Virus record (IMG/VR): IMGVR_UViG_3300050138_000011
Coordinates: 1 to 21,874 of that record
DNA: 21,874 nucleotides
Source of the DNA: a virus
Direction: 5' to 3' (one strand)
Shown: positions 11,335 through 19,138 of the stretch, in pieces
Position numbering within the stretch: position 1 is the first letter of the stretch
Layout: every line of letters starts with the position of its first letter
Program-made: the position numbers and the translations under genes
The notes under the pieces: generated by a model
What the model saw: only the letters and a program-made list of their open reading frames with translations
What the model was told of the DNA's origin: nothing
The model's database searches: none

Positions 11335-13017
11335 CTATTGTGGGCCTCGGTCGGCTTGGATAACCAGCGCCCCGTAGATGTCCCGGCTGATGCCGCGCGC
11401 ATCAGTGGCTTGGGTGTTCACGTTGAGCGTGTTGATCGTGACTTGCGGTCCGCCTCCACTCGATGCCGCTGGCGTTGCTGCCGCAGCAGACGGAAACACG
11501 CGCGGCAATCCGGTCGGCCAGTTTACCACCCCAGCATAGCGCGAACCATTCTCCATCCCGATGATGGCATGCTCCACTTTCGCCAAGGTTGCTGGGTCAT
11601 TGAGATCAAGATGCTGGCCGGCGCCAAAGCCGGTCGAAGCCGCCACATGAGCGACGTAACCGCTCGTGTCGTTTTCACCGGACGGTGCATATTTCGCGAT
11701 GATCCCGGCAATCGTATCGTTGCCGCGCGACGCATAGATCTGCAACTGGTGCCCAAGTGCCGCGACACCTTGCGCCATCGTGGAGAAGCGAGCGAACCGG
11801 CCGCCCGGCTCCAAGGTCGCGCCGTCTTGGCCAGCGAACTCCAGGTTGCCGGGGTTATTGTTGCGAATGCCGCGCGGCGCTGACTGATCGCCGCCACCAC
11901 CACCCATGATTTGCCGCTCGCGGTTGATCTCATCTTGCTCGCCAGCGCCCGCGCCGCTGATGTGCAACGCCTCATACGTCGTGGCGATTGCCGTCCCGAT
12001 CAGAGTGAGGCGACCAAGCAGCGTCGTCAGACCACCCAAGGCCGTCGCCGCAGCAGCTTCCCCCGCACCCGCAGCAGCTTCCCCCGCACCCGCAGCAGCG
12101 CCACCACCGAGCCATGACTTGACAATGGCCGGGCCTTTTATGAGTGCGACCAGTGCGCCTCCGAGAGTGCCCACGGCCAGCAGCCCCGCCGTCGCCTTGG
12201 GGAACGCATCGCTCATCTTGAGTAGGGCGTTTGTTACCAGGATCAGCGCCGGGTCGAGGTCGGAAACAAGTTTGGCGGCGCCAGCTTCGAGAGAGTTTTC
12301 CAGGTCGGTCCACGCCGCTTTCAGCTCAACCGCGTCTTTTATTGGGGCGTCGGATTGAGCAACCCGTTTGTATGACGTATCAAACTCTTTAGTGAACTCG
12401 GCCACCGACTTTGCTTGCTCTAGCGACTGCAAAGTAGAACGGTCAATACCGGGTATGATCTTGTTCACGAGCGCTTCAAATCTCTGCACCCCGCCAGGCT
12501 GATCTTTCAGCTTTTCGTATTGGGCCTCGATCAGCTTAATGAACTCGATCGGCGTGGTGTTGTCGCCGGCGCCGAAGACACCCGCCGCAACCTGATACTC
12601 TTTATCGCCAGTCAAAAGCGCGTTCGCCTTGGCGGCCGCGAGACCCTGCAACGCAGAGGTCGCACCTTCAGCCGTTCCCCCGAAATGCTCGATCGTCGCC
12701 TCGAAGGCTTTCAGGTTTTGCGGTGTTTCACCGATGGACCGCGCCTGCCGGTTCAACTCCGCAAGGCCGCCGACGGTGTTCTTGACGATGCTCTCAATGC
12801 CGCGCCCGCCGATCAGGACCGCGAACAGTGACAGCGCTTCGGTTTTGATCTTGCCGAAGAACGCCGCCGCCCGCGCGCCCTCGGATTCCATCTGGTTCGC
12901 GGTGCGGTGCGTCTCGTCCAGCATCGCTTTCTGGTAGCCGATCGCCTGCTGACTGCCCGCCTTGAACTTGCTTGCGTCAAGCGAGAGCGTTACGAGTAGA
13001 GAATCGACTAGAGACAT
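11335..13017 (-). CDS. Tape measure protein with C-terminal lysozyme-like (P5-type) domain
   Basis: The start is ATG 13017 (MSLVDSLLVTLSLDASKF), as tape measures of this group begin; the longer frame adds residues overlapping the GIY-YIG fragment. The protein has 560 residues. The first 250 are helical and charged, around EFTKEFDTSYKRVAQSD. Hydrophobic stretches near 270-290 and 330-350 (TTLLGRLTLIGTAIATTYEA) may span the membrane during DNA ejection. Between them is a 7-residue repeat AAAGAGE coded by two 21-bp tandem copies. Residues 382-492 form a lysozyme-like virion domain with RGIRNNNPGNL, ARFSTMAQGVAALGHQLQ and YAPSGENDTSGYV, resembling structural protein P5. At 560 residues it would set a short tail if it is the only length ruler. 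Confidence 0.8.
   Translation of the reverse strand: MSLVDSLLVTLSLDASKFKAGSQQAIGYQKAMLDETHRTANQMESEGARAAAFFGKIKTEALSLFAVLIGGRGIESIVKNTVGGLAELNRQARSIGETPQNLKAFEATIEHFGGTAEGATSALQGLAAAKANALLTGDKEYQVAAGVFGAGDNTTPIEFIKLIEAQYEKLKDQPGGVQRFEALVNKIIPGIDRSTLQSLEQAKSVAEFTKEFDTSYKRVAQSDAPIKDAVELKAAWTDLENSLEAGAAKLVSDLDPALILVTNALLKMSDAFPKATAGLLAVGTLGGALVALIKGPAIVKSWLGGGAAAGAGEAAAGAGEAAAATALGGLTTLLGRLTLIGTAIATTYEALHISGAGAGEQDEINRERQIMGGGGGDQSAPRGIRNNNPGNLEFAGQDGATLEPGGRFARFSTMAQGVAALGHQLQIYASRGNDTIAGIIAKYAPSGENDTSGYVAHVAASTGFGAGQHLDLNDPATLAKVEHAIIGMENGSRYAGVVNWPTGLPRVFPSAAAATPAASSGGGPQVTINTLNVNTQATDARGISRDIYGALVIQADRGPQ
12051..12092 (-). repeat. Two 21-bp tandem repeats in the tape measure gene
   Basis: Two identical copies of CAGCAGCTTCCCCCGCACCC plus G stand head to tail (12051-12071 and 12072-12092 on the plus strand), followed by a partial third. 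They code for the AAAGAGE repeat in an Ala/Gly linker of the tape measure protein. Copy-number change here would be in frame and tolerated. Confidence 0.85.
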
Positions 13018-13205
13018 AGCGAAATCTGTCCAAGGCGACGGCGACGCCAATGATTATCGCCGGCAGCGATTATGATCGCTCCAAGGTGTCGGTTCTTATG
13101 TTTTCCAGGCGCCTTGAAATGCTCCATAGGTCTACTATGGCGTCCTTTTCCAACGTAGCAAATTCTGCCATCGGGACGAAACAGAGCGTAAACACCGTAT
13201 GCCAT
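13008..13205 (-). CDS. GIY-YIG endonuclease-like fragment, 65 aa
   Basis: The N-terminus reads MAYGVYALFRPDGRICYVGK, with GVY for GIY and YVG for YIG spaced as in the GIY-YIG nuclease core, followed by KGRHSRPMEHF, where the Arg fits the usual third motif. After the LGAIIIAAGDNHW helix the chain ends in an Arg-rich run and QISLCL, about 10 bases inside the tape measure gene. The GIY-YIG domain normally needs about 90 residues including a later catalytic Glu, so the fragment appears truncated and probably inactive. It is coupled to the lysozyme stop (TGATG). DNA here is poorer in GC than its neighbours, as expected for an inserted homing-endonuclease remnant. It could instead be a short DNA-binding cargo protein. 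Confidence 0.6.
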   Translation of the reverse strand: MAYGVYALFRPDGRICYVGKGRHSRPMEHFKAPGKHKNRHLGAIIIAAGDNHWRRRRLGQISLCL

Positions 13206-13666
13206 CAGCCGATCGTCAGATAGAGCGCGCGTTCGGCTTCGCGCCGCCGGGTCAGTCCGGCCATGACCCGAAGAGCGCCGTCAATGCGAGCTTCATCCCA
13301 CATCAGAAACGCGGCGGCGGCGGCCTGTGTATCGCCTGAGCGGTGTTTCCTGAGAACGGTTGATCCGGCGAAATTTTCCGAGCCGATGTTGTAGCTCAGC
13401 GAGACCATGGCCGCGAACTGGTTGTCCGTTGTCGCCGCTCCGTCCATCGCTTGGGTAACAGCATCTTCCGCGCCAGACATGTCGTCATCCAACGCTTGAT
13501 CCGCCTGCTCTTGGGTGAATGTCATACCGGCTGACACGTTGCGCGTATGGCCGTAGCCGATTGTCCAGATACCGGCAACATCCCGATACGCCTTCAGCCG
13601 CAGACCCTCGAATGTCTTGATCAGAGCCATCCCGGCGTTGTTGATGATTCGTGCCATGTCAGTCAT
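13205..13666 (-). CDS. Endolysin/lysozyme, glycoside hydrolase family 24
   Basis: This 153-residue GH24 muramidase cleaves the MurNAc-GlcNAc bond of peptidoglycan. The catalytic triad of the T4-lysozyme type is visible: Glu20 in KTFEGLRLKAY, Asp29 in YRDVAG and Thr35 in WTIGYGHT. Further on are the AAMVSLSYNIG segment and the WDEARIDGALRVMAGLTRRR region usual for the family. Counting starts at ATG 13666; ATG 13657 (MARIINNAG) is an equally possible start, just after the chaperone extension stop. There is no signal peptide or SAR-type helix and no holin or Rz pair nearby. Its place inside the tail genes, between chaperone and tape measure, is unusual. The stop overlaps the next start as TGATG. 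Confidence 0.9.
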   Translation of the reverse strand: MTDMARIINNAGMALIKTFEGLRLKAYRDVAGIWTIGYGHTRNVSAGMTFTQEQADQALDDDMSGAEDAVTQAMDGAATTDNQFAAMVSLSYNIGSENFAGSTVLRKHRSGDTQAAAAAFLMWDEARIDGALRVMAGLTRRREAERALYLTIG

Positions 13667-14293
13667 CCGTGCGCTGATTGGCGAGACGCTGATTGTAGCG
13701 GTCTACCGCAACGATTTCGTAAAGATCGTATAGATCACGCAGGCCATAGACGGTCTGCAACTCAATCAGCTTTGCGAGGCCGCTGGAAACGACGGTGGCA
13801 AGGACTCGGTCGCTGTTGACGTATTCGGCCCAAGCGCGCCCATCAGCCCCGTCACCAAGATCCGGTAATACGAGAGCCGCTCGATCAGAGAAAAACCCAG
13901 ATGCAAAGACACGACCTCCTCATAAAGCTGGAAATAGGTCGCCGGCTCCTCGATCTGGGTCCGCACGATCTGCCATTGGCTGATCGGAAGTTGCGCACCG
14001 GCTTTCGTGAGGCCAGTCACGCACGTCAGCAACTCGTCGAGTAGCGGCTTGACATCGGCTGCCGGTGCCTTGCCCAGCCCGGTCACGACGGCGCCTATGC
14101 CCATCGCCGCGAAGCCTGCCCACCCGGCAGAGAAGATCCCCGGAGGGACCTCTGTGCCAGACCGTGCGAGCAACTGGAAACACCGAATCGCCCACCACGT
14201 TGCTTGATCGGCCGGCATCTCCGTGAGGGCGAACACGTCGCCCCGGTCGCGCCCCTCGCGCTGGATCACGACCGATGCGGTGCGCCGCGCCAT
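13659..14293 (-). CDS. Tail assembly chaperone, long form made by programmed -1 frameshift
   Basis: Reading 14293 to 13893 in frame, then -1 from 13892 to the TGA at 13661-13659, gives 211 residues: 134 of the short form plus a 77-residue extension. The extension is free of stops and looks like genuine protein, with WAEYVNSDRVLATVVSSGLA, KLIELQTVYGLRDLYDLYEI and VAVDRYNQRLANQR. It fills the otherwise empty space before the lysozyme and ends eight bases inside that gene's first ATG. The slip site is G GGT TTT (13898-13892), a canonical X XXY YYZ heptamer in the right phase. A GAGGAGGT purine tract lies about 16 bases upstream. By analogy with lambda G-T, the minor long form would bind tube and tape measure. 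Confidence 0.72.
13766..14293 (-). CDS. Tail assembly chaperone, short (0-frame) form
   Basis: This 175-residue protein starts MARRTASVVIQREGRDRGDV and includes FALTEMPADQATWWAIRCFQ and LDELLTCVTGLTKAGAQLP, then LYEEVVSLHLGFSLIERLSY. Size and place (after the tube, before the tape measure) fit a tail assembly chaperone, which wraps the tape measure during tail assembly. The 0-frame tail after residue 155 is low-complexity (TSTATESLPPSFPAASQS), whereas the -1 frame is protein-like. At residues 133-134 it reads through GGGTTTT in the correct phase for a -1 slip. The two-form arrangement parallels lambda G and G-T and P2 E and E-prime. No stop-start overlap with the lysozyme is needed if the long form is made. 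Confidence 0.78.
   Translation of the reverse strand: MARRTASVVIQREGRDRGDVFALTEMPADQATWWAIRCFQLLARSGTEVPPGIFSAGWAGFAAMGIGAVVTGLGKAPAADVKPLLDELLTCVTGLTKAGAQLPISQWQIVRTQIEEPATYFQLYEEVVSLHLGFSLIERLSYYRILVTGLMGALGPNTSTATESLPPSFPAASQS
13892..13898 (-). promoter_or_regulatory. Programmed -1 ribosomal frameshift slippery heptamer GGGTTTT
   Basis: The heptamer is read CTG GGT TTT TCT in frame, so G GGT TTT obeys the X XXY YYZ rule exactly. A -1 slip gives GGG TTT TTC and enters a 77-codon open frame that ends at 13659. GAGGAGGT lies about 16 bases before it and could act as a stimulatory internal Shine-Dalgarno. A small CGAG-CTCG stem lies about 10 bases downstream. Efficiency cannot be estimated from sequence. 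Confidence 0.75.
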
Positions 14294-16771: not shown

Positions 16772-17539
16772 CTACGGATTGGCCTGGACGGACCTTACAC
16801 TGACTGCGAGATGGTCCGCAAATTGCATTGTCGTGGTTACGGTGATGTTGGCCTGAAGGCAGAGATCGATCGACCACCGCTCTTCGACCTGTTGCTCGGC
16901 GTTGTCGAAAGCGATCTGCCGGGGATCGGACGTGTAGAGCGGCGCCATCAGAGCGGAATTCGCCATGAATGCGTTGACGCCGAACTCGTCGCGCCAGAGT
17001 GTCGAGATGCGCGTCGCGTTGTCGGCGCTCGCCGGCCCATGCACATCAGCCTGAATCGTGACCTCGGTTTTCTGCGTCGATTGCTGCATGCCGACATAGA
17101 GCGTCTGCATCGGCACGGAAGCGGTCGGCGTGGTCTGATAGGTGCCGATGCCACCGGGCGCGCCTGTGATCTGGCGCATGATCTGACATCCGGCTGTGAC
17201 ACCAAGGCCATAGACCGGTTGGCCGACGATCGCCGATCCAAGCAGGACAGCAGCAAGATCAAGCACGTTATCGACGATCGATCCTGTCACCTGGCTATCG
17301 GTGGTGGCATCGATGTTGGTGGCGAGCCGATCGCGCATCAGCGGCCAGAGGACAATGAAATCGGGCTGGCCTGGCTCGGGGACGCGGTTGACCTGACCAC
17401 GGATGATGGGGACCGTCTGGCCTGGCACCGAGGATGTAAGCCCGAACGTATTGAGGACCGCGACGATGCAGGTAAAAATCCGCGTCTCGGTTGGGGCTAT
17501 CTGCGTGAACCGCTGGGGCGGATTGGGCGCGTCGCTCAG
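16772..17539 (-). CDS. Alternative model: separate neck/tail-terminator protein from CTG start, 255 aa
   Basis: If the neck terminator is translated on its own, the likely start is CTG 17539, giving a 255-residue protein of normal size for the family. AGGA sits six bases upstream (AGGAAACAAGCTGAGC) and the TGA ending another frame at 17536 overlaps it, mimicking the ATGA junctions used elsewhere here. The first residues LSDAPNPPQRFTQIAPTE look like a native N-terminus with the Leu codon in place of Met. The stop TAG at 16774-16772 lies inside the ribosome binding site of the sheath gene. CTG starts are rare, so either this is a true weak start, a mutated ATG, or the domain is made only as part of the fusion. 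Confidence 0.5.
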   Translation of the reverse strand: MSDAPNPPQRFTQIAPTETRIFTCIVAVLNTFGLTSSVPGQTVPIIRGQVNRVPEPGQPDFIVLWPLMRDRLATNIDATTDSQVTGSIVDNVLDLAAVLLGSAIVGQPVYGLGVTAGCQIMRQITGAPGGIGTYQTTPTASVPMQTLYVGMQQSTQKTEVTIQADVHGPASADNATRISTLWRDEFGVNAFMANSALMAPLYTSDPRQIAFDNAEQQVEERWSIDLCLQANITVTTTMQFADHLAVSVRSVQANP

Positions 17540-19138
17540 CTTGTTTCCTGATCCCGGGCGTCGAGGAGCGCGAGCGTGGCATGGCTTGGAGAGGAGCGCG
17601 GAGAGGAAGGTCGGGACCCCGCTAAGGGAATAGGTGTCGGCGCTCGAAGCCTGGTCCGACAGCGCCGCGAAGAAGTGTGCCGACAGCAACGCTGTGTCGG
17701 CGCTCGCCACCGTGTCGGACAGCGTGATAACGGACGTACCCCAAAGCGCTTCCGAGGTCGCCGCCGATTCACTCAGGCCAACGAAGAAGGCGCCATGGCT
17801 GCCAATCGCCTCGGACGTTACCACCACGTCCGCCATGGCGACCGCGAACGATCCCGCCGCAATCAGCGATACCGACAGCGTTTCCGATGTGGCGGCCGTA
17901 TCGGCCGTGCTGGGCGCCGCGATCATCGACCACGCGCTTGCGTCCGACGATGCGGCGGTATCAGACCCGGATGCCGCGGCCAACATAGCCGCCGCCGAAG
18001 CGTCCGACGATGCGGCGGTATCGCTCAATGCCGCCGCGATCAGCATCGACACCGACAGCGTTTCCGTTGTCACGCCGGTATCAGCCCCGGCGACGGCGAC
18101 CCGCATCGCGGCAGTCTGCGCGTCGGAGCTCGCGGCCGTTTCACTGACCGAAGCCGCGACCGTCATCGCGGCCGTCAATGTGTCGGACGATGCCGCCGTG
18201 TCCGCAAGGCTGGCCGAATATGCCCCCGACCCAATAGTGCCGGTTATGACGATTATGCCCTGCGCGCCGTTCGCGCCGGTGGCCGTGTAGGAGGTGCTGC
18301 CAGCGCCGCCGCCGTATAATCCCCCGGTGCCTCCGCTCCCGGAGGCGGAAGTAACACTGGACCCACCGCCGCCACCGCCCGACCCTGCCGTTGTCCATTC
18401 GGTGCCCGGGCCGCCGGCAGCGCCCCCGAACTCTGTGGAGTCGCCGCCACCGCCACCACCACCGGCCGTGCCAGCAACGGCGTAAGCGGTGCCATCATTT
18501 GCGCCTGCCCCGCCGCCTGCGCCAAGATAGTTATTCCCGCCCGCGGCACCATTGCCATTAGCGGTGGCAGAGGCGTTGTTGCCTGCTGACCCCCCCCCCC
18601 CCCCCCCACCGCCACCGCCGCCGCCAGTATAAGTCGCGGAGCCAAGACCCCCTGCGCCGCCGTTCCCAAACGGGCCTCCCGCACCACCACCGCCCGTAGG
18701 ACCCGCCGCGGCGGAACCGCCAGAATATGTGGTCGCTCCTACCCCGCTGGCCGCGGCTCCGCCCGCTGCCCCGGTGTCAGCTACCTGCCCGCCGCCGCCC
18801 CCCTTGGCCCCGGATACAACGCCCGAAGATGTTATTACGGTAGCAGTGTTGTTCAGCGCAATCCAGCTATCCCCGCCGGTTCCGCCGTTGTCTCCCTCAG
18901 CGGCACCACCCACACCGCCCGCGCCGATACTGTAGTTACAGATCGTGCCGGGTGTAACGCTGATGGATCCACTGTTCGAGTATGCGCCGCCGCCGCCGGC
19001 ACCACCCCAATAATATGTGACGTTGCTGTCCGCTGCCCCACCACCACCACCGATCACCTCGAAGGTGGCCGAGGCCCAGCCGCTCGGGATGGTGTAAGTG
19101 CCGGCGCCTGTCGCAGTAATGAATACGACAGTGCTCAT
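16772..19138 (-). CDS. Glycine-rich adhesin-like domain + 20-aa repeats + neck/tail-terminator domain in one frame
   Basis: This is an uninterrupted 788-codon frame with three parts. Residues 1-300: a start typical of glycine-rich phage tip proteins (TYTIPSGWASATFEVIGGGG), then Gly-rich blocks compatible with a polyglycine-II adhesin fold. Residues about 305-507: ten degenerate 20-residue repeats around SDTAASSDT. Residues 534-788: a domain resembling LIC_12616/gp12-like phage neck terminators, beginning LSDAPNPPQRFTQIAPTET and containing VPIIRGQVNRVPEPGQPDF, LATNID and YTSDPRQIAFDNAEQQ. The terminator is normally a separate gene and completes the tail end. At the joint (17539) a CTG lies six bases after AGGA, and a TGA in another frame overlaps it, so this may be two coupled genes with a frame disturbance. 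RBS for 19138 is weak (GGTGA). Confidence 0.75.
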   Translation of the reverse strand: MSTVVFITATGAGTYTIPSGWASATFEVIGGGGGAADSNVTYYWGGAGGGGAYSNSGSISVTPGTICNYSIGAGGVGGAAEGDNGGTGGDSWIALNNTATVITSSGVVSGAKGGGGGQVADTGAAGGAAASGVGATTYSGGSAAAGPTGGGGAGGPFGNGGAGGLGSATYTGGGGGGGGGGGGSAGNNASATANGNGAAGGNNYLGAGGGAGANDGTAYAVAGTAGGGGGGGDSTEFGGAAGGPGTEWTTAGSGGGGGGSSVTSASGSGGTGGLYGGGAGSTSYTATGANGAQGIIVITGTIGSGAYSASLADTAASSDTLTAAMTVAASVSETAASSDAQTAAMRVAVAGADTGVTTETLSVSMLIAAALSDTAASSDASAAAMLAAASGSDTAASSDASAWSMIAAPSTADTAATSETLSVSLIAAGSFAVAMADVVVTSEAIGSHGAFFVGLSESAATSEALWGTSVITLSDTVASADTALLSAHFFAALSDQASSADTYSLSGVPTFLSALLSKPCHARAPRRPGSGNKLSDAPNPPQRFTQIAPTETRIFTCIVAVLNTFGLTSSVPGQTVPIIRGQVNRVPEPGQPDFIVLWPLMRDRLATNIDATTDSQVTGSIVDNVLDLAAVLLGSAIVGQPVYGLGVTAGCQIMRQITGAPGGIGTYQTTPTASVPMQTLYVGMQQSTQKTEVTIQADVHGPASADNATRISTLWRDEFGVNAFMANSALMAPLYTSDPRQIAFDNAEQQVEERWSIDLCLQANITVTTTMQFADHLAVSVRSVQANP
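17536..17556 (-). promoter_or_regulatory. Internal Shine-Dalgarno with CTG start and overlapping TGA at the adhesin/neck joint
   Basis: The sequence AGGAAACAAGCTGAGCGAC has AGGA six bases before CTG 17539. CTG opens the neck-terminator domain. TGA at 17538-17536 terminates a different frame, whose last residues are LALLDARDQETS. The overlap is of the same kind as the ATGA junctions elsewhere in this operon. Confidence 0.5.
17610..18229 (-). repeat. Ten degenerate 60-bp (20-residue) tandem repeats
   Basis: Inside the large frame, units of mostly 20 residues share the core SDTAASSDT (for example ASLADTAASSDTLTAAM, ALSDTAASSDASAAAM, GSDTAASSDASAWSM, ALSDQASSADTYSLSG). The first six are exactly 20 residues long and later ones vary from 18 to 24. 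In DNA, GCGTCCGACGATGCGGCGG recurs 60 bases apart near 17939 and 17999. The repeats form a probable shaft between the glycine-rich and neck domains. Confidence 0.85.
18590..18607 (-). repeat. Homopolymer of 18 G (minus strand) inside the glycine-rich coding region
   Basis: Eighteen consecutive C on the plus strand give exactly six GGG glycine codons in the glycine-rich domain. The neighbouring glycines use mixed GGC and GGT codons, so the pure run is not needed for the protein. Any change of one or two bases would shift the frame into early stops (about 18253 or 18141) before the repeats and neck domain. Sequencing or assembly error in the length is also possible. Confidence 0.9.

Follow-up and report, generated by a model that had tools for sequence, protein, structure and literature searches.

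A probable programmed −1 frameshift in the tail assembly chaperone gene of a contractile-tailed phage and its conservation across related phages and prophages

The sequence studied is a viral record of 21.9 kb (21,874 nt; hereinafter the window), in which the chaperone region lies on the minus strand. The part of that strand examined here carries the tail genes of a contractile-tailed phage, in the order DUF3383 sheath, E217 gp32-type tube, chaperone ORF, endolysin, GIY-YIG fragment and tape measure gene (Table 1). The GIY-YIG ORF is probably truncated, and the true start of the tape measure gene, whose product is the presumed client of the chaperone, probably lies near position 13014. Elsewhere in the window, a long ORF (16772-19138) codes for a glycine-rich stretch followed by serine/alanine-rich repeats with D-T-A-A-S-S-D-like units; it looks like a structural or appendage protein, and is possibly two genes read as one ORF.

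Table 1. Features of the tail gene region in the window.
Feature	Position	Strand	Basis
Tail tube-like gene	directly upstream of chaperone ORF	-	E217 gp32 family, PF22764
Tail assembly chaperone, short form (TAC-N), 175 aa, 0 frame	13766..14293	-	PHROG 1932, gene order
Internal Shine-Dalgarno-like AGGAGGT, candidate frameshift stimulator	13914..13920	-	upstream of heptamer
Slippery heptamer G_GGT_TTT (5' to 3' on the minus strand)	13892..13898	-	in phase; canonical heptamer at homologous codons of relatives
Putative extension in the −1 frame (77 codons and a stop), forming the C-terminal domain of the long form	13659..13892	-	PHROG 3976, tblastn, divergence, model
Endolysin (phage lysozyme)	13205..13666	-	Pfam Phage_lysozyme, E 1.4e-42
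GIY-YIG ORF, LEM-3-like, 65 aa	13008-13205	-	between endolysin and tape measure gene
Tape measure protein gene	11335..13050	-	PHROG 2276 tail length tape measure protein, E 5.7e-41

The 0-frame product of the chaperone ORF matches PHROG 1932, annotated as tail assembly chaperone, over residues 1-136 (E 1.9e-29). Its identification as a tail chaperone combines this family membership with a position downstream of the tube and sheath genes and upstream of the tape measure gene, past the endolysin and the GIY-YIG fragment; relatives share the gene order around it. AlphaFold2 confidently models the chaperone domain as a β hairpin with helices (pLDDT 86), and a search of a viral structure library with this model recovers a phage protein (E 6.7e-17), gp01 of Acinetobacter phage AB1 (2.9e-06) and other tail chaperones. 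The chaperone gave no matches as a single-protein query against the genome and viral contigs, and sequence and fold searches of the PDB yielded no significant match for the chaperone half or for the extension half described below.

Within this ORF, the 0-frame codons CAT CTG GGT TTT TCT contain, at residues 133-134, the heptamer G_GGT_TTT, exactly as the earlier note had described it and in the phase that fits a tandem −1 slip. The only −1-frame stops around the site are at 13922-13920 and 13661-13659, which leaves 13919-13662 open in that frame; the shift window, where both frames are open, spans 13919-13768, and GGGTTTT is the only in-phase XXXYYYZ heptamer in it. A slip here would add 77 aa after the shift, giving a predicted fusion of 211 aa. 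This stop-free −1 frame had been called protein-like in content, with a search against phage proteins proposed as a check: its product matches PHROG 3976 (E 7.3e-20) and has tblastn matches in 37 phage records. As the PHROG 1932 match of the 0-frame product ends at residue 136, adjoining the slip, the two family matches together indicate that the −1 reading is more than a chance opening. Comparison with relatives shows the extension to be under protein-level constraint, the −1-frame differences between the window and relatives being concentrated at third codon positions (with L018, for example, 26/23/41 over the three positions). The AlphaFold2 model of the extension is helical (mean pLDDT 84), with a C-terminal helix at residues 51-76. 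The 0-frame tail beyond the slip, previously set aside as low-complexity, proves to be more than that: close relatives keep the pattern S..RLS...NT.TS. Because this tail is recognisably conserved in the nearest relatives, both the short and the long forms of the chaperone appear to be under selection. The expectation that an ordinary gene caller would leave 13659-13765 empty needs correcting as to span: the gap would be about 13667-13765, since the start of the following gene is at 13666 or 13657.

The closest relatives comprise L018 and seven loci found through their sheath genes (L127-L133; L131 is identical to L130). Their genes run sheath, tube, chaperone, extension, tape measure, and their extensions are open for 75-81 codons. 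GGGTTTT stands at the site in L018 and L127 through L132, and AAATTTT in L133. In L018 and the sheath-based relatives other than L133, the tape measure match begins about 10-45 bases past the end of the extension match; hence, the earlier placement of the frameshift just before the tape measure gene applies to the relatives examined but not to the window, where the endolysin and the GIY-YIG fragment intervene.

We also fetched 14 phage records (L002-L015), chosen by their chaperone or extension matches. Taking the chaperone as frame 0, 13 of them have the matched extension in the −1 frame; in the remaining one, Obolenskvirus AbC62, the extension has no direct match, and the next gene is in the −1 frame, with a slip at T_TTT_TTA joining the two. 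GGGTTTT is present at the site in five records (phiAO1, vB_AsaM-56, 4_D05, IFTN2 and Stenotrophomonas B2), its codons being embedded in a Leu-His-x-Gly-Phe context, or Thr-Gly-Phe in the type represented by IFTN2 and Stenotrophomonas B2, which is more distant. Another seven have TTTTTTN (PA-1, Orisa03, Amjad_SA, Lbo240, KLEP17-4, AbC62 and a Helicobacter pametensis prophage), while the sites of Yersinia P744 (T_TTC_TTC) and of Klebsiella RCIP0114 (C_GCT_TTT) are no more than weak. None of the 14 GenBank annotations joins both parts of the chaperone: nine omit the extension and five (PA-1, AsaM-56, 4_D05, Amjad_SA and AbC62) list it as a separate gene.

A scan with the extension profile widened the sample to 80 viral and 31 bacterial-genome loci, with a chaperone detected upstream in 110 of the 111; the exception, L036, has its extension at a contig edge. 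Every locus with both halves detected has its extension in the −1 frame (110/110), and the frame stays open in relatives, contrary to the closure by stops that the earlier note had named as grounds for rejecting the frameshift. Its other check, conservation of the heptamer, likewise came out in favor: after dropping near-duplicates (>90% identity around the site), 63 of the 72 non-redundant loci have a canonical XXXYYYZ heptamer no more than one codon away from the homologous position; of the 8595 in-phase codons upstream within those genes, 21 have one (a background of ~0.25% per codon). About half of the heptamers at the site are GGGTTTT, the commonest (31 of the 63, or 32 with L018, for which TTTGGGT is listed first). 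Phe is encoded at the site by TTT in 68/69 cases, whereas elsewhere TTC is commoner (179 TTC, 115 TTT), and the codon preceding it is GGT, GAT or AAT in 66/72. Roughly one in eight non-redundant relatives is without a canonical heptamer, most of these keeping a T run of at least 4. Given the shared ancestry of the loci, naive binomial values overstate the significance of these counts.

We consider it about 95% probable that a programmed −1 frameshift yields a short and a long tail chaperone here; with the same slip site in dozens of related phages, the prediction appears sound. The competing accounts differ in what they expect of the phase and the site. Were the extension a separate small gene with its own start, independently translated, one would expect mixed phases and gaps between the halves and no need for a heptamer. 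This is how the five GenBank records annotate it, and PHROG 3976 itself consists of stand-alone proteins of about 67 aa; however, in relatives the open −1 frame reaches back at least as far as the slip site, the phase is invariant, and the heptamer codons are kept with the minority codon TTT, making independent translation very unlikely. Slippage of RNA polymerase on the T run as the source of the −1 product is marginally less likely still. It could draw on the five T of the window and the up to seven or eight in some relatives, but the run lengths quoted for transcriptional slippage are above 7 for A and above 8 for T (PMC3711429), and the window's five T fall below these and short of a long homopolymer of about 8 or more. 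Moreover, relatives with AAATTTT or AAATTTC, with only 3-5 T, keep in phase the X_XXY_YYZ arrangement, required by a ribosomal mechanism alone.

The splitting of one ordinary gene, whether by a recent frameshift mutation or by an error in sequencing, would account for a single frame change within one conserved two-part protein. It is refuted by the conservation of that change, found at the same place in 110 loci that include assembled bacterial genomes and complete phage genomes, and its probability is negligible. The conservation pattern of phase and heptamer, as read from these alignments of related loci, is predicted by none of the rivals to programmed ribosomal frameshifting.

Signals that might promote the slip were sought on both sides of the heptamer. 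The internal Shine-Dalgarno-like AGGAGGT ends 15 bases before it, and its GGAGGT is invariant in 8/8 of the closest sequences. Across 69 sequences, anti-Shine-Dalgarno pairing in the upstream zone is modestly stronger than in synonymous shuffles (z −3.1, with control zones at +0.1 and +2.9), and GAGG occurs in 24 of 68 upstream stretches as against a 12% background; in the window alone, the amino acids explain the Shine-Dalgarno-like sequence. The spacing from AGGAGG to the heptamer (~16 bases) is longer than in dnaX, where the Shine-Dalgarno sequence lies about 10 bases from the slip site. The internal GGAGGT is a candidate that may stimulate the slip. Downstream of the site in the window there is no stem-loop stronger than in shuffled sequences. 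Over the 50 downstream bases of the 72 non-redundant loci and the window, the mean folding z-score is about −1.4 and 23% of the values fall below −2, a hint that some lineages, though not the window, may have a downstream stimulator.

We propose that most ribosomes would read 14293-13766 to yield the 175-aa short chaperone. A minority, possibly stimulated by the internal GGAGGT, would slip back one base on G_GGT_TTT (to GGG TTT) while the P site holds GGT and the A site TTT; reading on in the −1 frame as far as 13659 would give the 211-aa long chaperone with its predicted C-terminal helical domain. By analogy with gpG/gpGT of lambda, many short and few long copies would then coat the tape measure protein, with the extension recruiting tail tube subunits. 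The site, its phase, the homology of both halves and their conserved arrangement are established at the level of sequence comparison, from which we infer the slippage in cells, its rate, the effect of the Shine-Dalgarno-like motif and the chaperone role.

The endolysin is a neighbor of the frameshift signal and lies outside it; in none of the fetched relatives does it have a match. Its start is an ATG at 13666 or 13657, without a strong Shine-Dalgarno sequence, and overlaps or abuts the stop of the −1 extension. As 0-frame ribosomes stop 100 bases upstream, the endolysin might now depend on the frameshift, via reinitiation fed only by shifted ribosomes, though we regard this as unlikely. If the endolysin were indeed made mainly by reinitiation, the ratio of the tail chaperones and the amount of endolysin would both be set by a single slip site. 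At the same extension/tape measure junction, L133 has (2080-2940) a larger GIY-YIG-like reading frame with NUMOD3 motifs of the homing endonuclease type. The occurrence of GIY-YIG elements at this junction in both the window and L133 suggests that it serves a homing endonuclease as an insertion site.

That tail chaperones are made by frameshifting is textbook knowledge, and the window adds a predicted example of this established mechanism. The likeness to lambda G/G-T and P2 E/E' drawn in the earlier note holds for mechanism and gene position. Lambda gpG/gpGT resembles the window in a −1 slip near the 3' end of the chaperone gene, upstream of the tape measure gene, that yields a minor long form; however, lambda is a siphophage, unlike the contractile-tailed phage of the window, and slips on GGGAAAG; the proteins are likened by mechanism and position. 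P2 E/E+E' is a myophage chaperone with a −1 frameshift between the tube and tape measure genes; no P2-type family is found among the family and tblastn matches of the window proteins. Frameshifting of tail chaperones in the −1 direction has been reviewed, with the P2 shift reported as 2-3 fold more efficient than that of lambda (PMC5009743), and two tail chaperone genes of HK97 type gave measured rates of 6-7% (PMC3711429). The temperate Burkholderia myophage PhiE067 has a chaperone frameshift (ORF16/16.1) at the same GGGTTTT, known as a prediction only (PMC7266877); likened by site and lengths, it would slip at G127 to give 204 aa, as compared to residues 133-134 and 211 aa in the window. In Vandenendeviridae, a predicted −1 chaperone frameshift is conserved at GTTTTT, and in these and Andersonviridae, which are other phage families likened by description, the conserved shift lies at a G-plus-T-run motif and the extension is routinely misannotated (PMC12846349).

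Relatedness in one or both halves extends to Obolenskvirus, Popoffvirus, Kunmingvirus, phiAO1 and related phages, which have the chaperone half or both halves with the same −1 phase and slip codons. We recognised no paper on frameshifting in the PHROG 1932/3976 family in the literature searched, outside which most subscription papers fall; the annotation gap in this family, whose public records either give the halves as separate entries or lack the second, may thus be new. The finding leaves the picture of how tail chaperones work unchanged. As far as sequence goes, it settles one frameshift prediction, and it places the same slip codons across contractile-tailed phages and prophages of Acetobacter, Aeromonas, Acinetobacter, Pseudomonas and Bordetella, together with many environmental ones. 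The natural variants of the slip site among them (GGGTTTT, AAATTTT, TTTTTTN and T runs without a canonical heptamer) offer a means of measuring the trade-off between site and efficiency.
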